Positions 9,055-18,999 of a stretch of DNA of 64,000 nucleotides are shown piece after piece (position 1 is the first letter of the stretch; each line of letters opens with the position of its first letter). The stretch is taken from the NCBI GenBank assembly GCA_030447305.1, contig JAUJPC010000002.1, positions 314,815 to 378,814 of the forward strand. Direction: 5' to 3'. The notes beneath the pieces are model-generated. The model was not told where the DNA came from, did no database searches, and was given only the letters and a program-made list of their open reading frames with translations. This DNA is from Actinomycetota bacterium (GTDB taxonomy: Bacteria > Actinomycetota > CADDZG01 > JAHWKV01). The translations under genes and the position numbers were made by a program.

Positions 9055-11436
9055 ATGTGGTGCGTGAGGCCGATGTTGTCAGGCGCTAACTTTCCGGAGC
9101 CGGCTGACTTCCGAAGCCCCGGGCCCTCCGTGCTGGCGCGGCTGGTGCTGGCGATGGTGGTAGCCGGGCTGGTTACCGGAGTGGTGGGAAGCTGGCTGAT
9201 TGCCCGGTCGGCGGGCAGGGCCCTGCGATCGGAGATCGACCACCAGAACGAGAGCCTGTCGAGCAGTCTGGCAAAGAGGCTGGACGATCGGATCTTGGCG
9301 AGGGTTGACACGCTGCGGGTAATGGCAACCCGGCGAGATCTGCAGCAGATGAGCTCGGGCGCTCAAACCGAGGTCGACGTGGTCCTCAAAGTAATGCCGG
9401 ACATCGGCAGGTTGGCGGTCTTCGATGCAGCCGGGGACCCGATTGCCGCAGCGTCCGGCACCAGGCTGTTGAGCCCCGACGAGCTGGGGACCCGGCCGGG
9501 TCTAGTGAACGACATGTCTCCGGGTTCGTTCAAGACCACGTTGGTGGGATTGACGCCGGCGGTGGTGGAGATGGTGGTCCCGATCGAGAACCCTCGCGGG
9601 ACGGTTGCGGGATGCCTCGTGGCAGAGACACCGCTCGAGGAGCTGGCCGCCCACCTAGAGGAGGTTGAGACCGGCACCTCACGTACCGCTTTTCTGGTTC
9701 GACGGGACGGGCGCATCATGGTTCACAGGGACAGGGACCGGGTGTTGCGCGGTGAACGCTTCACCGTCCCGGGCGAGGCGGCGGTGCCGGCAGGCTCTTT
9801 CAGCGGCCGGGGACCGGACGAAGGCAGGTATCTGTTCTCCGGAGCGCGCACGTCGACGATCCCGACCGTCGTCGTCCTGCAACAACAGCAGAGCGAAGCG
9901 TTCACCTCCGTAGCCACCTCCAGCCGGAGTCTGGCAATGATCCTTCTCGCGGTGATGGCTGTGACAGTGGGAACCGTAGGCATCGTCGGGCGGCACTTGC
10001 TGGCACCGCTTCGCTCCATGGCCGTTGCGGCAAGAAGAATCGGCCGCGGTGAGCATGGCGCCCGGGTACCGGTCAGGGGTTACGGCGAGGTGGGAAGTCT
10101 TAGCGAAGAGCTCAATCGGATGGCCGGGGCACTCGAGCTGCGCATGGCGGAGCTTGAAGAACGAAGGGCGGCGGAGGAGGCGTTGCGTCAGCAGAGCCTT
10201 CTTGCGGAAACCCTTTACAACGTCGGAAGCGTCTTGACCGCCCAGCTCGACCTCAAAGAGGTGGTCCAGGCGGTCACCAACATTGCGACCGATTTGACCG
10301 GTGCCGGGTTCGGCGCCTTCTTCTACAAGGAGATCGATGCCGGAGGAGAGTCCCACGCGCGCTACACGCTGGCGGGAGTTGCTCCCGAGGACTTCTCCGA
10401 ATTTCTGATGCCACAGGACCCCGACATCTCCGGTCCGACCTTTTACGGCGAGGGCACGGTCCGCTCCGACGACATAACCAAGCACGCGGCATACGGGCGA
10501 AATAGGCCCTACTCGGGAACTCTGGAAGGTGATCTGCCGGTCCGAAGCTACCTCGCAGTGCCGGTGATCTCGAAGCGGGGAGAGGTCCTCGGGGGCCTGT
10601 TCTTCGGCCATGAGGAGGTTGGGGTATTCAACCAGGGTCACGAGCATCTGTCGGAAGGAATAGCGGCCCAGGCCGCCATCGCTATCGAAAATGCGCGCCT
10701 TTACGCCGCCCAGCGCAGTGCCGCCGAGACACTGCAGCGAAGTCTCTTGCCTGCAGGGCTGCCGGAGCTCCCCGGCTTGCAAGCGGCCGCCCGGTACCTT
10801 CCGGCTGTGCCGGGAGTTGAGGTCGGGGGCGACTGGTACGACGTGATAGAGCTTCCCCATGGGACGGTGGCCGTGGTCGTGGGAGATGTCGTCGGCCGTG
10901 GGATCGTTGCTGCAGGCACTATGGGGCAGCTGTGCCATGCGGTTCGGGCTTACGCCCTGGAGGACTCGGCGCCGGCAGAGGTCCTGGCACGGCTCAACCG
11001 CTTCCTCCTCCATGTCGGGGTCGACGAGCAGATCGCAACCGTCGTTTTCGCCGTGGTCAATCCGGCTGAGCGCACTATATGCATCGCCAATGCCGGACAT
11101 CCGCCCCCGTTGCAGCTGAATGCCGACGGGTCGGCCGCCTTCATAGAGCTGGAGAGTGGACCACCGGTGGGAGCGCTGCCCGACATGGTCTACAAAGAGG
11201 AGCTCACCAACATGCCGCCGGGGAGCCGGCTGCTCCTCTACACCGACGGCTTGGTGGAGGACCGCAGAATGCCCCTGACGGAGGGCCTGGAACGGCTGAG
11301 GAGAGCGGCGATGGACGCCCCCGAGGACATCGAGAACTTCTGCGATTTCGTGGTGCGCCGGCTGGCGCAGGGCCGTGACGTCCAGGACGACATCGCCGTG
11401 CTGGCAATAGGATCAGCCCCGTCGGAGCAGACCTAG
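9055..11436 (+). CDS. membrane sensor phosphatase: Cache-like, HAMP, GAF, SpoIIE (PP2C)
   Basis: This 793-aa signalling protein has TM1 (about 29-51), a large extracytoplasmic Cache-like region (about 55-290), TM2 (about 300-322), HAMP and a short coiled coil (to about 385). A GAF domain (about 400-555) and a C-terminal SpoIIE/RsbU-type PP2C phosphatase (about 575-790) follow. The phosphatase has metal-binding motifs GGDWYDVIEL, VGDVVGRG, NAGHPPPLQL, YTDGLVEDR and DDIAVLAI. Relatives dephosphorylate anti-anti-sigma factors in partner-switching stress pathways, but no RsbV/RsbW homologue is in the window. The start may instead be ATG 9073. Its stop overlaps the leuB stop by 4 bp. Confidence 0.88.
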   Translation: MWCVRPMLSGANFPEPADFRSPGPSVLARLVLAMVVAGLVTGVVGSWLIARSAGRALRSEIDHQNESLSSSLAKRLDDRILARVDTLRVMATRRDLQQMSSGAQTEVDVVLKVMPDIGRLAVFDAAGDPIAAASGTRLLSPDELGTRPGLVNDMSPGSFKTTLVGLTPAVVEMVVPIENPRGTVAGCLVAETPLEELAAHLEEVETGTSRTAFLVRRDGRIMVHRDRDRVLRGERFTVPGEAAVPAGSFSGRGPDEGRYLFSGARTSTIPTVVVLQQQQSEAFTSVATSSRSLAMILLAVMAVTVGTVGIVGRHLLAPLRSMAVAARRIGRGEHGARVPVRGYGEVGSLSEELNRMAGALELRMAELEERRAAEEALRQQSLLAETLYNVGSVLTAQLDLKEVVQAVTNIATDLTGAGFGAFFYKEIDAGGESHARYTLAGVAPEDFSEFLMPQDPDISGPTFYGEGTVRSDDITKHAAYGRNRPYSGTLEGDLPVRSYLAVPVISKRGEVLGGLFFGHEEVGVFNQGHEHLSEGIAAQAAIAIENARLYAAQRSAAETLQRSLLPAGLPELPGLQAAARYLPAVPGVEVGGDWYDVIELPHGTVAVVVGDVVGRGIVAAGTMGQLCHAVRAYALEDSAPAEVLARLNRFLLHVGVDEQIATVVFAVVNPAERTICIANAGHPPPLQLNADGSAAFIELESGPPVGALPDMVYKEELTNMPPGSRLLLYTDGLVEDRRMPLTEGLERLRRAAMDAPEDIENFCDFVVRRLAQGRDVQDDIAVLAIGSAPSEQT

Positions 11437-12461
11437 GACGCCGCTTCCGCTATAAGCTCCGACGCTTCTCGGGTCGATAACTGGTCCGGGGCTATCTTTC
11501 CGGCCACCGCCTCAACGGCGCGCTCCAGCCTGGTCGCTCCTTTCTCCTCTCCGACATGGCGCAGCATCATGGCGGCGGAAAGTATCGCTCCAACCGGGTT
11601 CGCCAGTCCCGTGCCGGCAATGTCGGGGGCCGAGCCGTGGACCGGCTCAAACATCGAAACCCGGCCTGGGTGCACGTTGGCGCTGCCGACGAAGCCGATA
11701 CCGCCAACCAGGCCCGCCGCAAGATCGCTGAGGATGTCGCCGAACAGGTTGTCTGTGACCACGACCCGGAACCGCTTGGGCTGGGTGACCATCAAAAGTG
11801 CGGCCGCATCGATGTGCTGGTAGGCGGTCTGGACGCCGGGAAATTCGCCACCGATTTCGGAGATCGCTCGCAGGTAGAGGCTTCCGGCTCGCTCGAGAAC
11901 GTTGGTTTTGTGCACCAACGTAAGGGACTGCTTGCGTTTAGCCGCCAGCTCGTACCCGTACCGTACGATTCGGCTGACCGCGGGCCAGGTATTGAGTGAA
12001 ACCTCGGTGGCCTGCTCCTTGCTGCTTCCAGGATCGGTGACCTCACCGCGGCCGCAGTAAAGGCCTTCGGTGTTCTCTCTTACTATTACAACGTCTAGCT
12101 GGTCGGCGTTGCTGAGTACGCTGTTGACGCCGCTGAGCAGGCGGGACGGCCTCAGGTTCACGTACAGATCCAGCTCCCGGCGCAGCCGCAGCAACAGGCC
12201 CTTCTCCAGGATGCCGGGCGGCACCCGGGGATCCCCAACGGCCCCCAGTAGCACCGCCTGGTGTTCGCTCAGCCGTTGCAGGTCGTCGTCGGTCAGCACC
12301 TGACCCGTCCTCAGGTACCGGTTGGCCCCGAGATCGTAATTGGTGACCTCCAAAGCGAAGCCCTCGGCATCCGCCACGGCATCGAGAGCCATCAATGCCC
12401 CCTCTGTGACCTCCGGACCAATACCGTCCCCCGGCACGACTGCAAGGCTGTGGGTCTTCAT
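11433..12461 (-). CDS. leuB: 3-isopropylmalate dehydrogenase
   Basis: This 342-aa enzyme of the isocitrate/isopropylmalate dehydrogenase family oxidises and decarboxylates 3-isopropylmalate in leucine synthesis. It has the N-terminal VVPGDGIGPEV, the substrate-binding Arg cluster LLLRLRRELDLYVNLRP, the Tyr-containing RENTEGLY and the NAD-binding EPVHGSAPDIAG. It is the last gene of the ilvB-ilvN-ilvC-leuA-leuB operon, starting 12 bp after leuA. Confidence 0.95.
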   Translation of the reverse strand: MKTHSLAVVPGDGIGPEVTEGALMALDAVADAEGFALEVTNYDLGANRYLRTGQVLTDDDLQRLSEHQAVLLGAVGDPRVPPGILEKGLLLRLRRELDLYVNLRPSRLLSGVNSVLSNADQLDVVIVRENTEGLYCGRGEVTDPGSSKEQATEVSLNTWPAVSRIVRYGYELAAKRKQSLTLVHKTNVLERAGSLYLRAISEIGGEFPGVQTAYQHIDAAALLMVTQPKRFRVVVTDNLFGDILSDLAAGLVGGIGFVGSANVHPGRVSMFEPVHGSAPDIAGTGLANPVGAILSAAMMLRHVGEEKGATRLERAVEAVAGKIAPDQLSTREASELIAEAAS

Positions 12462-12473
12462 CGTTTGCGGTCG

Positions 12474-14015
12474 TTAGAAGGAGGGGGCTTCCAGGGCGGC
12501 CCGCCGGGTGTTCACGTTCGTGGCCCGGTTCACCGCGTTCAGGAACGCACGTGCTGAGCCCTCCACCACATCTGTGGAGACACCTTTGCCCGAATAGATG
12601 ACCCCGTCCACGTTGACCTGGACCGAGATCTCGCCGACGGCGTCGGTTCCTCCAGTGACCGCTCCCACTTTGAAGGACACCAGCTTGGCATTGATTCCCA
12701 GTGCCCTTTGGATGGCGCCGCAGGTGGCATCGATCATCCCGTCGCCTTCGGCCGACTCCTCAAACGTCTCGTCACCGGAGCGAATGCGAACCTTGGCCGT
12801 GGGATGGACGTGAGTGCCACCCCGGACCTGGAGGTCCTCCAGGACGTAGGTGTCCTGGGCGGTACTGATCTCGTCGGTGACGATGGCCAGCAGATCGGCC
12901 TCTGTCATCTCGATCTTGCGGTCGACCAGCTCCCGGAACCGGCTCCACGCCCGGTTCAGGTCCTCGCCGCTCAGCTCGTAGCCCATATCGCCCAGGGTCT
13001 TGGCAAAGGCGTGCCGGCCGGAGTGCTTGCCCAGCACGATACGGTTGGAGTCCCAGCCCACTGAAGTGGCGTCCATGATCTCGTAGGTGGTCCGGTCCAT
13101 CAGCACGCCGTGCTGGTGAATTCCGGCCTCATGGGCAAAGGCGTTGGATCCGACGATCGCCTTGTTGGGCGGAACCTGATAACCGGTCAGGGCCGAAACC
13201 AGCCGGGAGGTGCGGACGATCTGGCGGGTTTCCGCTCCGGTTGTTACGCCCATCGAAGCTCCGCGGGTCTGGATGGCCATGATGACCTCCTCGACCGAGC
13301 AGTTGCCCGCCCGCTCGCCGATCGCGTTCATCGCCCCTTCGACCTGGCGGGCACCGGCCTGCACGCCGGCCAGCGCGTTCGCCACGGCCAGGCCCAGGTC
13401 CTGATGGGTGTGCGTCGACCAGATCACGTCGCCCGAACCCTCGACGTTGTCGATCAGATACCGGAACAGGTCTGCGTACTCGTTGGGCAGGGCGTACCCG
13501 ACCGTGTCGGGAACGTTGCAGGTCGTCGCCCCCGCCTTGATGGCGGCGCCGAACATCTTCACCAGGAAGTCCGGGTCGCTTCGGGTAGCGTCCTCGGCCG
13601 AGAACTCCACATCCGGCGTGTAGCTGCGGGACCGCTCGACCCCGGCGATCGCTGCCGCCATCACCTGCTCGGGCGTCTTGTGCAGCTTCTTTTCCATGTG
13701 GATGGACGAGGTGGCGATGAATACGTGGATCCGAGCTCGCTGAGCGTCTTTGATGGACTCCCAGGCGCGGTCGATGTCGGAGAGCTGCATGCGGGCCAGC
13801 CCGCAGATGACCGGCCCCTTTACGCTTTGAGCCACCGCCCTGACCGCATCGAACTCCGACTGCGAGTTGATGGGAAAGCCCGCCTCGATCACATCGACTC
13901 CCAGCGCGGCCAGCTGATGGGCGATCTCCACCTTTTCCTTGGCGGACAAGTTGATGCCGGGGGATTGCTCGCCGTCGCGCAGCGTGGTGTCGAAGATACG
14001 TACGTGGTCTGGCAT
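12474..14015 (-). CDS. leuA: 2-isopropylmalate synthase
   Basis: This 513-aa enzyme catalyses the first committed step of leucine synthesis, from 2-ketoisovalerate and acetyl-CoA. The HMGL-like TIM barrel carries FDTTLRDGEQSPG near the N-terminus and the metal-binding HTHQDLGLAVAN and HQHGVL. A C-terminal LeuA allosteric domain (about 390-505) binds leucine as feedback inhibitor. A Shine-Dalgarno AGGAG precedes the ATG by about 9 nt. The 144-bp gap to ilvC contains no gene and no leader peptide I could recognise. Confidence 0.96.
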   Translation of the reverse strand: MPDHVRIFDTTLRDGEQSPGINLSAKEKVEIAHQLAALGVDVIEAGFPINSQSEFDAVRAVAQSVKGPVICGLARMQLSDIDRAWESIKDAQRARIHVFIATSSIHMEKKLHKTPEQVMAAAIAGVERSRSYTPDVEFSAEDATRSDPDFLVKMFGAAIKAGATTCNVPDTVGYALPNEYADLFRYLIDNVEGSGDVIWSTHTHQDLGLAVANALAGVQAGARQVEGAMNAIGERAGNCSVEEVIMAIQTRGASMGVTTGAETRQIVRTSRLVSALTGYQVPPNKAIVGSNAFAHEAGIHQHGVLMDRTTYEIMDATSVGWDSNRIVLGKHSGRHAFAKTLGDMGYELSGEDLNRAWSRFRELVDRKIEMTEADLLAIVTDEISTAQDTYVLEDLQVRGGTHVHPTAKVRIRSGDETFEESAEGDGMIDATCGAIQRALGINAKLVSFKVGAVTGGTDAVGEISVQVNVDGVIYSGKGVSTDVVEGSARAFLNAVNRATNVNTRRAALEAPSF

Positions 14016-14159: not shown

Positions 14160-15155
14160 TCAGTCCTTGCGCAACCAGGGCATCATGGACCGCAGCTCCC
14201 TGCCGACGCTCTCGATCTTGTGGGCAGCCGCCTGGTCCCGCATCTTCTGGAAGTTGGGCGCGCCCGCTTCAGCCTCCGCCACCCACTCGTTGGCGAAGTT
14301 GCCGCTCTGGATGTCGACCAGGATCCTGTCCATGGCCTCACGGGTCTGATCGGTGACTACTCGCTGGCCGCGAGTCAGGTCGCCGTACTCGGCGGTGTCG
14401 GAGATGGAGTGGCGCATCTTGGCCAGGCCACCCTCGTAGATCAGGTCGACGATAAGTTTCACCTCGTGCAGACACTCGAAGTAAGCTACCTCCGGCTGGT
14501 AACCGGCGTCGACCAGGGTCTCGAAGCCGGTCTGGATCAGGCGGGTAAGGCCGCCGCAGAGAACGGCCTGCTCGCCGAACAGGTCGGTCTCCGTCTCCTC
14601 CCGAAAGGTCGTCTCGATGAGGCCGGCCCGCGCGGACCCGATGCCGTAGGCGTAGGCCAAAGCGTAGTCGTGTGCCTTTCCGCTGGCGTCCTGCTCAACC
14701 GCCACCAGAGCCGGGGTGCCGATGCCCTCCCTGAAGGTGCGCCGCACCAGGTGACCCGGGCCCTTGGGAGCGACCATGAACACGTCGACACCACCCGGCG
14801 GTGTGATCCTGCGGAAGTGGATGTTGAAGCCGTGGGCGAATGCCAGGGCGTCACCGTCGTTGAGGTTGGGTGCGATGGACTCGTCGTAGACGGCCTTGGC
14901 GTGCTGGTCCGGCACCAGCATCATGATGACCTCAGCTTCGCCTGCCGCTTTGGAGGTCTCGAGGACCCGCAGACCGGCAGCTTCCGCCTCTGCCCAGGAG
15001 CTCGACCCGTCCCTCAGGCCGACCCGGACATCGAAGCCCGAGTCCTTCAGGTTAAGGGCGTGCGCATGGCCCTGGGAGCCGAACCCGATGATCGCGATGG
15101 GTCGCCCCAACAGAGCCTCGGGATCAGCGTCCTTTTCGTAGTACTTCGTGGCCAT
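14160..15155 (-). CDS. ilvC: ketol-acid reductoisomerase, class I
   Basis: This 331-aa short-form enzyme isomerises and reduces acetohydroxy acids in Val/Ile/Leu synthesis. The Rossmann motif [12 protein letters not shown] is near residue 25, with a following basic/Ser loop for NADPH. The C-terminal knotted domain carries the metal-binding acidic residues ([20 protein letters not shown]). A strong TAGGAGG precedes the ATG. It is third in the ilv-leu operon. Confidence 0.97.
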
Positions 15156-15182: not shown

Positions 15183-15695
15183 TTAACCGGCCACCCGCAG
15201 CTGACGGTCCTTGATTGATTTGGAACCGCGGCTGAGCCCCACCCGGCCGGACTTGACCAGCTCGATTATCCCGTAGGTTGCCACCAGGTCCTCGAAGGCG
15301 TTGATCTTGTCCGGGGAGCCGGTGACCTCGACGGTCATGGCGTCGGTGCCCACATCGATGACCTTCCCCCGAAAGATCTCGGTCAGCTCGATGATGCGAG
15401 CGCGCACCTCGGCAACGGCCCTTACCTTGATCAGCATCAACTCACGCTCGACGGAGGACTCCCGTTCGAGCTCGATGACCTTCAGGACGTTGATCAGCTT
15501 GTACAGCTGCTTGGTCACGTGCTCGAGCGGCCTCTCCGGCAGGTCGACGACGATGGTCATGCGGCTGACATTGGGGCTTTCGGTGGTCCCGACCGCCAGT
15601 GAGTGAATGTTGAATCCCCGGCGGGCGAACAGTCCCGAAACCCGGGAGAGGACACCCGGTTTGTTTTCGACCAGGACGGCGATCGTATGTTTCAC
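15183..15695 (-). CDS. ilvN: acetolactate synthase small (regulatory) subunit
   Basis: This ~170-aa protein has an N-terminal ACT domain (HTIAVLVENKPGVLSRVSGLF) that binds valine for feedback control and a conserved C-terminal ALS_ss domain ending near GSKSIKD. GTG 15695 is chosen because homology starts there and GGAGG lies directly upstream (short 3-nt spacing). The longer frame to 15743 adds an Arg-rich, non-conserved stretch. It works with IlvB, encoded 116 bp upstream in the same operon. Confidence 0.95.
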   Translation of the reverse strand: MKHTIAVLVENKPGVLSRVSGLFARRGFNIHSLAVGTTESPNVSRMTIVVDLPERPLEHVTKQLYKLINVLKVIELERESSVERELMLIKVRAVAEVRARIIELTEIFRGKVIDVGTDAMTVEVTGSPDKINAFEDLVATYGIIELVKSGRVGLSRGSKSIKDRQLRVAG

Positions 15696-15811
15696 GAGCC
15701 TCCGCTCCCTTCGGTCCCGTTCGGATCGGAGGATCCACCGCACTCCGCTCCCTGCGGTCGCTCCGGTGGACGGTGAAAGGCAATGCTTGGACCCTGCGCT
15801 CCCTCAGTCAT
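15696..15811 (-). repeat. structured ilvB-ilvN spacer with repeated GGGAGCG motifs
   Basis: Three near-copies of an (A/G)GGGAGCG(G/C)AG motif occur on the minus strand. A 7-bp inverted repeat, TCCACCG/CGGTGGA, encloses an inner CCGCA/TGCGG stem. It has no coding content. It may be an mRNA-processing or translational-balance element or a dispersed repeat. Confidence 0.4.
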
Positions 15812-17611
15812 TTAATCGATCACCATCTCTTCGGTTTGCGAGTAAAGGTGGTCGCCCAGCTCATGCTCCACCGGGTCCTTCTCGAACTCGGGACCAAGGA
15901 TGATGTCGTCGTTGGAACTGCCGGCCGCCACCATCGGGTAGCACATCTCCTGAGGGTCGCACCGGAAGTCGATCACGACCGGGCGGTCGTTGACGCCCCG
16001 GGCCTTTTCGATCGCGGCGTCGACCTCCTGCATCGATTCCACCCGCAGACCGATACAACCGTATGCCTCGGCCAGCTTCACGTAGTCCGGGATGTCCCAG
16101 CCGAACTCCACCTCTGAGTAGCGCTCGTCGTAGAACAGCTCCTGCCACTGGCGAACCATGCCCAGGTAAGCGTTGTTGATGATGGCGATCTTGACCGGGA
16201 TCCGTTCCACCGCCATGGTTGCCAGCTCCTGGCAGGTCATCTGGAAGCAGCCGTCGCCGTCGATGCACCAAACTTCGTCGCCGGACCTGGCGACCTTGGC
16301 CCCCATTGCTGCGGGCACACCGAATCCCATGGCTCCCGAGCCGCCGGAGTTGATCCAGGTACGGGGCCGGCGGAACGGGATGAACTGCGAAGCCCACATC
16401 TGGTGCTGGCCCACGCCCGAGCAGTAGATGGCATTGCCATCGGTCAGGGCGGCTAGCCGCTCCACCACGTACTGCGGCTTCAGTGGCCCGTCCTGCGTCT
16501 GCGTGTATCTGTAGGGGTACCTGGCCTTCCAGTCGTTGACCGTGTCGCGCCATGCCGAGTAGTCGGGTCCTGATCCGTTGGCTGAGGGCCCCGGGTCCTT
16601 GCTCCGCCGGGACTCGATGACCTTGATCAGCTCAATCAGGGTCGCCTTTGCGTCGCCCACGATCGGCACGTCGGCCTTGCGATTCTTACCGATCTCAGCC
16701 GGGTCGATGTCGGCGTGGATCACCTTCGCCTCGGGGGCGAATGACGACAGCTTTCCGGTGACCCGGTCGTCGAAGCGGGGGCCGATGCCGATCAGCAGGT
16801 CGGAGCGCTGCAGCGCGGTCACAGCAGTGTAGTTGCCGTGCATGCCCGGCATGCCCAGGCACAGAGGGTGGTTGTCGGGCATAACGCCGCGGGCCATCAG
16901 CGTGGTGACGACCGGGATGCCCGTCATCTCGGCCAGTTGCACCAACTGTTCGGAAGCCCCCGCCTTGATGATGCCGCCGCCGGCGTAGATCACAGGACGC
17001 TCGGACTGGGCGATCAACTTCGCCGCCTCCACGATCTGTCGGTGGTTTGGCTTGGAGGTCGGCTGGTAGCCGGGAAGGTCGATGGGACCGGCAGGCACGT
17101 ACTCGACCTTGGCCTGCAGCACGTCCTTGGGGATGTCCACCAGCACGGGGCCGGGCCGGCCGGTGCCGGCGATGTGGAACGCTTCCGCGATGGTCTGGGC
17201 GATGTCGTCGGGCTCCATCACAAGGAAGGTGTGCTTGGTGACGGGCGCAGCGATGCCGGTGATGTCCGACTCCTGGAAGGCGTCGTAGCCCATGGCCGGG
17301 CGGGGGACCTGGCCGGTGATGGCAACCACCGGGATCGAATCCATGAAGGACGACGCCAGGCCGGTGATCAGGTTGGTGGCGCCGGGGCCCGAGGTGGCCA
17401 TGCAGACACCCACCTTGCCGGAGGCTTGAGCGTAGCCGTCGGCCGCGTGGGCGGCACCCTGCTCGTGGCGGCACAAGATGTGCTTGACCGTAGAGTCGAT
17501 CAGCGGATCGTAGGCAGGCAGGATCGCCCCGCCCGGTATACCAAAGATGTGCTCGACCCCAACCGCTTCGAGCGCAAGGAAAAGGGCCTTGGCCCCGGTG
17601 ACCTCGCTCAT
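15812..17611 (-). CDS. ilvB: acetolactate synthase large (catalytic) subunit
   Basis: This 599-aa thiamine diphosphate enzyme forms acetolactate or acetohydroxybutyrate from pyruvate, the first step of branched-chain synthesis. It has the N-terminal PYR domain with the catalytic Glu region ([14 protein letters not shown]), a middle FAD-binding domain ([13 protein letters not shown]), and the C-terminal TPP motif starting [12 protein letters not shown] and ending INN. An AGAGGAGAGGA Shine-Dalgarno precedes the ATG. It is the first gene of the operon, with a 250-nt attenuator leader upstream. Confidence 0.97.
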
Positions 17612-17734: not shown

Positions 17735-17760
17735 AAAAAACCTCTCAGTCGAGAGGTTTT
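17735..17760 (-). terminator. attenuator terminator upstream of ilvB
   Basis: On the minus strand AAAACCTCTC-GACT-GAGAGGTTTT is a perfect 10-bp hairpin followed by further Ts. It lies 30 nt after the leader-peptide stop and about 125 nt before the ilvB start, where a transcription attenuator is expected. Confidence 0.85.
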
Positions 17761-17789
17761 GTAGCGCTCGCCGGAACTGCAGGCGCGCG

Positions 17790-17855
17790 CTACCGCGATA
17801 CGAGAAGAAGGCCCAACTGCCCCTGAGGGCTCCTTTCCGTTTCGTAGCGCGTCAC
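17790..17855 (-). CDS. ilv operon leader peptide (21 aa)
   Basis: GTG 17855 opens a 21-codon frame ending ...GQLGLLLVSR and stop. The run Leu-Gly-Leu-Leu-Leu-Val uses TTG, CTT, CTT, CTC and GTA codons, several of them uncommon in this GC-rich DNA. AGGAG (17863-17867) lies 7 nt upstream of the GTG. Ribosome stalling at these codons when charged Leu- or Val-tRNA is scarce would favour an antiterminator over the 17735-17760 hairpin. Position, SD, codons and terminator all agree; stalling itself is inferred from known attenuators. Confidence 0.75.
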   Translation of the reverse strand: MTRYETERSPQGQLGLLLVSR

Positions 17856-17885
17856 TGTCAGACTCCTGTTCGTTGCCTTGCGACC

Positions 17886-17914
17886 ATCTTCCCCCAGGGG
17901 TAGAGGGGTGTCAA
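17886..17914 (-). promoter_or_regulatory. ilvBNC-leuAB promoter
   Basis: On the minus strand TTGACA (17909-17914), a 17-nt spacer and GAAGAT (17886-17891) form a good sigma-70-type promoter. The predicted start near 17879 lies about 24 nt before the leader-peptide GTG. Confidence 0.65.
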
Positions 17915-17945
17915 GCAATCCGGGCGCCGACCGGCGCCGCTCTGG

Positions 17946-17951
17946 AATAAT
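17946..17951 (+). promoter_or_regulatory. putative -10 (AATAAT) of a leaderless Gfo/Idh mRNA
   Basis: AATAAT matches TATAAT at five of six bases and lies 7 nt upstream of GTG 17959, with no Shine-Dalgarno between. Confidence 0.4.
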
Positions 17952-17958
17952 TCCCTCC

Positions 17959-18999
17959 GTGAACAGACGCCCCATAAAGATAGCGGTTGCCGGAGCAGGT
18001 TACGGCAGGAAGGTGGCACTGCCCGTTTACCGGGAGATGGAGGAGTTTGAACCGGTCGCGTGCTGGTCCCACACCCCCGCGCGCGCCCGCAAGCTGGCGG
18101 ACGAGTTCGGGGTGGAGCTGGGGACCTCCGATTTCGACGAGCTGCTCTCCGTTCCCGGCCTGGAGGCGGTTCATGTGGCCACTCCGGTTGTCACCCACCT
18201 TCCTTTTGCTCGAGCGGTTACCGACCGGGGCATGCACCTTCTATGCGAGAAGCCGCTGGCCGAGAACCTGGCAAGTGCCCGTCAGATAGCCGAGGCGGTT
18301 CGCTCGGCGGGCGTGGTCGGCACGGTCGGGTACTCCCTGCGAATGAAGCAGACCCGGCGGCGGGTCATCGAGACGGCCCGGGAGGTCGTGGGGAACCCAC
18401 GGATGGTCTCCATTTCTCTGGTGCACTCAGACCATGCCCATTCCGAGTCACGGCCCTACACCTGGGTCCACGACGCCAGCCTGGGGGGTGGACGCCTGCA
18501 GGGTTACGGAGTGCACGACCTGGACCTTCTTCTGGCGATCTTCCCGGCGGTCGAGGCGGTGGTTGCGGCATTGGAGGTCGGCGTTCCGATGCGGATATCG
18601 GACGGCGGGCAGATGCGGCGGGTAACGGCCGAGGACGCCTATGGAGTCCTCCTGCGTTTCAAAGGGGGCGGCTTGGGTGTCGTCACCCTGGTAGCCACTG
18701 CCCGGCACGGCCGCAAGGACCTGATCGAGATCTACGGCGACGAAGGTACCGTCAGAATGGACTCCGACTTCCGTTTGTGGTCGGGCAGGGCGGGTGAGGA
18801 CCTGCAAGTCGAGGGGCCGCTCAGCAACGACTCGCAGGAGGCCTTCAAGGAGGTGGCTTCTAACTTCTGGCTGTCTGTACGTGAAGGGAGGCCCCCGAAC
18901 CCTTCGTTGGAGGAGGGGTTGAGGGTGCAGGCGCTGTTCGATGCGATCAAGATCGCCGACAGCGAGCGGCGCTGGGTTACGCCCGAGCCCGTCGCTTAG
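17959..18999 (+). CDS. Gfo/Idh/MocA family oxidoreductase
   Basis: This 346-aa NAD(P)-dependent sugar or inositol dehydrogenase-like protein has an N-terminal Rossmann fold with AGAGYGRKVALPVY (11-24). The signature CEKPLAENL (EKP 97-99) marks the nucleotide/substrate interface, and a C-terminal alpha/beta substrate domain follows. GTG 17959 is chosen over the longer frame because the Rossmann strand begins at once and AATAAT lies 7 nt upstream. The next gene, a divergent triosephosphate isomerase homologue, begins 19 nt downstream, suggesting co-expression. The substrate cannot be read from sequence. Confidence 0.82.
   Translation: MNRRPIKIAVAGAGYGRKVALPVYREMEEFEPVACWSHTPARARKLADEFGVELGTSDFDELLSVPGLEAVHVATPVVTHLPFARAVTDRGMHLLCEKPLAENLASARQIAEAVRSAGVVGTVGYSLRMKQTRRRVIETAREVVGNPRMVSISLVHSDHAHSESRPYTWVHDASLGGGRLQGYGVHDLDLLLAIFPAVEAVVAALEVGVPMRISDGGQMRRVTAEDAYGVLLRFKGGGLGVVTLVATARHGRKDLIEIYGDEGTVRMDSDFRLWSGRAGEDLQVEGPLSNDSQEAFKEVASNFWLSVREGRPPNPSLEEGLRVQALFDAIKIADSERRWVTPEPVA

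Follow-up and report, generated by a model that had tools for sequence, protein, structure and literature searches.

The ilv-leu locus and its leader

The window, by which we mean the whole 64,000-nt stretch of Actinomycetota DNA that was analyzed, carries on its minus strand a set of genes for branched-chain amino acid (BCAA) synthesis that follow the leader in the order ilvB-ilvN-ilvC-leuA-leuB. These genes encode the large subunit of acetolactate synthase (ilvB, 15812–17611; NF005860 and TIGR00118), its small subunit (ilvN, 15183–15698; NF008864 and TIGR00119), ketol-acid reductoisomerase (ilvC, 14160–15155; NF004017 and TIGR00465), 2-isopropylmalate synthase (leuA, 12474–14015; NF002086 and TIGR00973) and 3-isopropylmalate dehydrogenase (leuB, 11433–12461; NF002898), all of the families named being matched above cut-off and each gene having at least one curated equivalog family among them. 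On the plus strand, divergent from the leader, lies a gene for a Gfo/Idh/MocA-like oxidoreductase (17878–18999). Read from its first listed start (TTG, 17878), the gene would overlap the ilvB promoter; the GTG at 17961 is the likelier start.

The leader, read on the minus strand, opens with a putative promoter (17886–17914) composed of a −35 hexamer TTGACA (17914–17909), a 17-nt spacer and a −10 hexamer GAAGAT (17891–17886), the last of which is identical to TATAAT at three of six positions; a simple promoter scan made no call here. A Shine-Dalgarno motif, AGGAG (17863–17867), common to the four same-genus genomes, stands 7 nt 5′ of a GTG start codon. The GTG opens a leader peptide ORF of 21 codons (17790–17855; VTRYETERSPQGQLGLLLVSR) that ends at a TAG stop codon (17792–17790). 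Close to its end are the codons CTT CTT CTC GTA (Leu Leu Leu Val; 17799–17810), which the sequence and the codon bias of 79 leaders point to as the control codons; a TTG codon lies upstream of them and the peptide holds no Ile codon. A GC-rich hairpin begins at the stop codon (17761–17793; arms 17793–17782 and 17772–17761), with a predicted fold of −19.0 kcal/mol (z −3.6), and abuts with zero gap an intrinsic terminator (17735–17760) of the form AAAACCTCTC-GACT-GAGAGGTTTT plus TT, which is conserved with compensatory changes. The terminator stem is a 10-bp hairpin (17760–17737) leading into T6, and the T run is located about 125 nt 5′ of the ilvB ATG at 17611. An earlier reading of this DNA, made from the sequence alone, had listed a promoter, AGGAG, a GTG-started 21-codon peptide and a 10-bp hairpin with its T run as lying in that order before ilvB, and each of these elements is present at those positions on the minus strand.

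Conservation in relatives

Relatives were retrieved with IlvB as the query, and the comparison within the order covers the six genomes that yielded ilvB. Within the genus (four genomes) the peptides end in LGLLLVSR (the window), LVLLLVSR, LFLLLVSR and LVLLLVSR, one of the same-genus peptides being longer by three whole codons, and two genomes from another family of the order have SILLLVCT and ALILVLM. The sequence-only reading had remarked on the absence of Ile codons, which holds for the window and for its genus (LVLLLV, LFLLLV and LVLLLV) but fails across the order (SILLLV and ALILVL). It had also named retention of the terminator without the peptide as an observation that would count against attenuation; the relatives keep the peptide tail together with the terminator. 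All six leaders of the order retain a promoter made up of TTGAC(A/G), a spacer of exactly 17 nt and a second hexamer with AT as its last two bases.

At a wider scale, a scripted design—a short ORF with at least four Ile, Leu or Val residues in its last nine codons and a terminator within 90 nt—was recovered from the ilvB upstream region at 87 of 106 loci. The same design was found 5, 0, 1, 2 and 0 times in five dinucleotide shuffles, once among the 106 opposite strands and once among 65 downstream regions. An exact pattern, TAGCGCACG..CGTGCGC..TTTT, proved too narrow for survey use, occurring in 10 of 397 genomes. With a covariance model derived from the leader alignment, matches at an E-value of 0.001 or better were obtained in 83 of the 297 phylum genomes sampled. 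In the 2.88-Mb genome to which the window belongs, the leader is the sole significant match (E 1.9e-12), the next (E 0.29) overlapping the same place on the other strand. The element is an ordinary, well-conserved actinobacterial control device, if one with a preference for a rare Val codon and an unusual arrangement of two adjoining hairpins, found here in a little-studied lineage known to this analysis mostly from metagenome assemblies.

The distance to the first gene varies. In leaders from a different family of the class, and in some others (together L011–L015, L018–L020, L022, L027 and L028), 350–470 nt separate the attenuator from ilvB and an apparent small conserved gene lies between the two, so the attenuated unit does not always have ilvB first.

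Codon choice in the leader peptides

The codon sample consisted of the last eight codons of 79 distinct leaders, with expectations taken from the ilvB usage of each locus; the background usage was that of the ilvB gene per locus together with eight genes of the window. Across these leaders Val is written as GTA 122 times against 7.8 expected, while GTC (23 against 75.8) and GTG (5 against 70.0) are avoided; for Leu, CTT occurs 53 times against 13.5 expected and CTG 24 times against 77.2. GTA makes up 5% of the Val codons in the eight window genes. The preference depends on position: GTA accounts for 54 of the 55 Val codons at position −4 before the stop codon, and for 110 of 125 at positions −3 to −5 versus 3 of 25 at −2 and −1 (Fisher p 1e-13, a value made inexact by shared ancestry). 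That the choice among synonymous codons varies with distance from the stop codon argues strongly for translation of the ORF and for the importance of where a ribosome stalls. If a ribosome covers 12 nt downstream from its A site, the extent assumed here, the GTA preference changes where a stalled ribosome would start to cover the stop-codon hairpin. Attenuator leaders are already known to favour rare codons, the leu operon being an example, and selective tRNA charging has been given as the explanation (PMC1183508).

A stall at a rare codon could act in another way, in that starvation at GTA might provoke a frameshift, letting ribosomes bypass the TAG and melt the terminator. The −1 frame does run through the terminator without a stop codon in 72 of 79 leaders, a figure to be set against 63 of 79 for the zero frame and 62 of 79 for the +1 frame, as GC-rich sequence predicts; with no clear excess, we consider frameshifting a very improbable explanation.

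Copies before other genes

Covariance-model matches also lie before genes other than ilvB, as second copies of the module of peptide, stop-codon hairpin and terminator. The copies before leuA (L143, L160, L164, L151 and L170) have tails rich in Leu codons (FVLLLT, SALLLL, QNLLLT, DLLLLM and GLLLR), as has the copy before leuS (L162; ILLLTEPC), and those before cimA (L148, L152, L165, L157 and L163) use mainly Ile codons (SIIIIR, AIIIIR, SIIIIA, TVIIT and RIIGS). Before leuB (L146, L147, L150 and L173) the tails carry Ile and Val codons (LIVIIS, AVIIIE, SIVIIR and VRVVEIP). The control codons thus follow the product of the regulated gene, as attenuation predicts, and the presence of Leu and Val without Ile in the window leader fits an operon that runs on into leuAB. 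The Ile-rich leaders before leuB are a poorer match, for which a role of the LeuB enzyme beside cimA is one possibility. One further match before leuA (L168; E 7.7e-4) is without Leu codons and was left out of the count. Two matches before isocitrate lyase (aceA; L158 and L159, E about 1e-4) have tandem hairpins and a terminator and no BCAA run; they may be chance matches or a related device with another signal.

These codon patterns bear on whether the leader regulates at all. A repressor, growth-rate control or Rho could instead be the main source of control, with the terminator setting only the basal level, and in a Streptomyces coelicolor experiment cited by Seliverstov et al. (2005; PMC1262725) alteration of the possible regulatory codons ahead of ilvBNC made no difference. 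Position-dependent synonymous codons and codons matched to the pathway are, however, hard to explain without codon-dependent control, and we regard regulation from elsewhere as improbable.

Two adjoining hairpins

Relative to the stop codon, the first base of the hairpin falls between −1 and +2 in 76 of the 79 leaders, and in all 79 the hairpin ends 0–6 nt 5′ of the terminator; its median shuffle z is −4.2 (mononucleotide shuffles), L031 being the weak case. The interval from stop codon to terminator ranges from 26 to 45 nt and is filled by the hairpin (correlation 0.89, mean gap 1.8 nt). For 59 aligned leaders the RNAalifold consensus consists of two separate hairpins only; of its 13 pairs, 10 have changed on both sides, and the covariation score is 0.354, versus 0.205 (sd 0.011) for shuffled alignments and at most 0.159 for slid structures. 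The hairpin and the terminator have no bases in common. The sequence-only reading had overlooked the stop-codon hairpin (17793–17761) and had called the attenuator complete, a word that proves too strong since this hairpin shares no bases with the terminator and folding found no classical antiterminator.

The terminator stems of the 79 leaders, including 17760–17737 of the window, mostly have a core of CCTC(C)/(G)GAGG with a Shine-Dalgarno-like 3′ arm, and two C-G pairs of the stem are invariant in all 59 aligned leaders.

Structured leaders of this kind might in principle bind a ligand, and ppGpp riboswitches do govern some ilvB genes elsewhere (Narunsky et al., 2023; PMC10272879). No Rfam family reached its gathering score in the window (0 matches), a permissive Rfam search of the leader and eight related loci returned chance matches only, and just two conserved hairpins lie between the peptide and ilvB, all of which makes control of ilvB by a riboswitch for ppGpp or another ligand extremely unlikely.

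Ribosome position and the proposed mechanism

To model the ribosome, the nucleotides beneath it were made unavailable for pairing in full and partial transcripts of the 79 leaders, which were then folded at equilibrium. The predicted mean probability of the stop-codon hairpin is 0.98 with the ribosome at codon −4 and 0.00 with it at the stop codon. For the window's own copy the stalled-state probability is 0.12, because the region of the start codon can pair with the 5′ arm of the hairpin; the three other same-genus copies give 0.69–0.99. This alternative pairing, formed by GCGCTAC in the window, is lost in the same-genus leader L005 and is hence not conserved.

The terminator has a predicted probability near 1 in every ribosome state. 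No base-paired antiterminator that would exclude it was found by folding with ribosome blocks in the window leader or in the 78 others. Since the terminator is predicted regardless of where the ribosome stands, the step of antitermination lacks a base-pairing basis. In these models, then, the readout hairpin is clear and a classical antiterminator is absent.

In E. coli attenuators of the trp and leu type, the antiterminator shares bases with the terminator, overlapping it, whereas in the window the two hairpins stand side by side. These systems otherwise resemble the leader in their control codons, in hairpins that read the position of the ribosome, in the terminator and in a rare-codon bias like that of the leu leader (PMC1183508). 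Of the features of the classical type, control codons matched to the operon's product in a translated leader are present, and a shared-arm antiterminator was not found by equilibrium folding of the 79 leaders. A classical device whose base-paired antiterminator shares a terminator arm may have been missed through kinetic or tertiary structure, and two actinobacterial precedents speak for it: the authors of the M. tuberculosis ilvB1 study describe terminator and antiterminator as mutually exclusive (PMC13236596), and in Corynebacterium the antiterminator of the ilvB-II motif shares an arm with the terminator (Narunsky et al., 2023; PMC10272879). Against it, the consensus holds only two separate hairpins, and the 5′ arm of the terminator is captured neither more nor earlier when the ribosome is stalled than when it has reached the stop codon (mean 0.35 stalled versus 0.42 at the stop codon across the 79 leaders). 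We judge a trp-type antiterminator rather unlikely, if a serious alternative.

What we propose is that the leader very probably controls the ilvBNC-leuAB operon by ribosome-mediated transcription attenuation in response to Leu and Val. Attenuation of an ilv-leu operon through Leu and Val codons was what the sequence-only reading had suggested; comparison backs it, and the family matches define the operon as ilvBNC-leuAB. A ribosome would translate the 21-codon leader behind RNA polymerase and, where charged Leu- and Val-tRNA suffice, would arrive at the TAG and cover the 5′ arm of the stop-codon hairpin. With that arm covered, the terminator would form on free RNA and transcription would stop before ilvB. 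Were Leu or Val short, the ribosome would wait on CTT-CTT-CTC-GTA and the stop-codon hairpin would form against the terminator stem, where its bulk may hinder closure of the terminator base within the exit channel of the polymerase and so permit readthrough. The parts, the constraint on codon choice, the geometry and the pathway-matched codons are drawn from sequence and comparison; we infer which way the leader responds and that antitermination is steric, a steric block being the simplest account that makes use of the strict adjacency of hairpin and terminator. Such a scheme would explain how Leu and Val can serve as the signals that tune a single operon responsible for making both of them and, in part, Ile.

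Tentatively, and aware that the idea may well prove wrong, we extend this to a widespread Actinomycetota class of attenuators without a base-paired antiterminator, in which a hairpin that starts at the stop codon and adjoins the terminator stem crowds the exit channel, and in which the rare codon GTA, placed mainly where a stall leaves this hairpin free, acts as the sensor. The same module would serve ilvB, leuA and cimA, each time with codons suited to the pathway.

Relation to known leaders

Predicted leader peptides and terminators before ilvB were described by Seliverstov et al. (2005) in Corynebacterium, Mycobacterium and Streptomyces, with the other parts of an attenuator apparently missing (PMC1262725). 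Those leaders share with the window an ilvB operon, a short ORF with runs of Ile, Val and Leu codons and a terminator; they differ in lineage and in that their ORFs overlap the candidate terminator hairpins, whereas in the window the stop-codon hairpin separates ORF from terminator (PMC1262725). The ilvB-II motif likewise has two stem-loops before ilvB, a BCAA-rich uORF and a terminator (Narunsky et al., 2023; PMC10272879). Its uORF, in contrast, spans most of P1, and part of its terminator pairs alternatively with the P1 loop (PMC10272879); the window ORF ends where the first hairpin begins, and folding found no such alternative pairing.

The nearest validated system is the ilvB1 attenuator of M. 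tuberculosis, in which replacing LVVI with AAAA abolishes induction (Eckartt et al., 2026; PMC13236596). The ilvB1NC attenuator and the window have in common a short uORF, BCAA control codons including GUA, a terminator before ilvB and a hairpin that reads ribosome position, and they differ in their control codons, LVVI in the former and LLLV without Ile in the latter (PMC13236596). The window has both the BCAA-codon ORF upstream of ilvB and the terminator between them; a stop-gated hairpin is predicted for the leaders as a group, the window copy having, through its competing pairing, a stalled-state probability of 0.12.

We found no description of the position-dependent GTA rule, the geometry of abutting hairpins or the modular reuse in the openly accessible literature. 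Through the comparison, actinobacterial leaders that had been described only loosely become a defined module that can be searched for and that no Rfam family covers, and the question raised in 2005 of how regulation proceeds without an evident antiterminator gains a testable answer. One leader of the phylum, L179, combines LVVI with GTA GTA, and its upstream hairpin adjoins the terminator with no base in common. In L179 the ORF extends beyond the control codons and encloses the 5′ arm of the hairpin, whereas the hairpin of the window starts at the stop codon. As a leader with the LVVI codons of the validated M. tuberculosis ilvB1 has the same adjacency, the proposal can be tested in laboratory actinobacteria.
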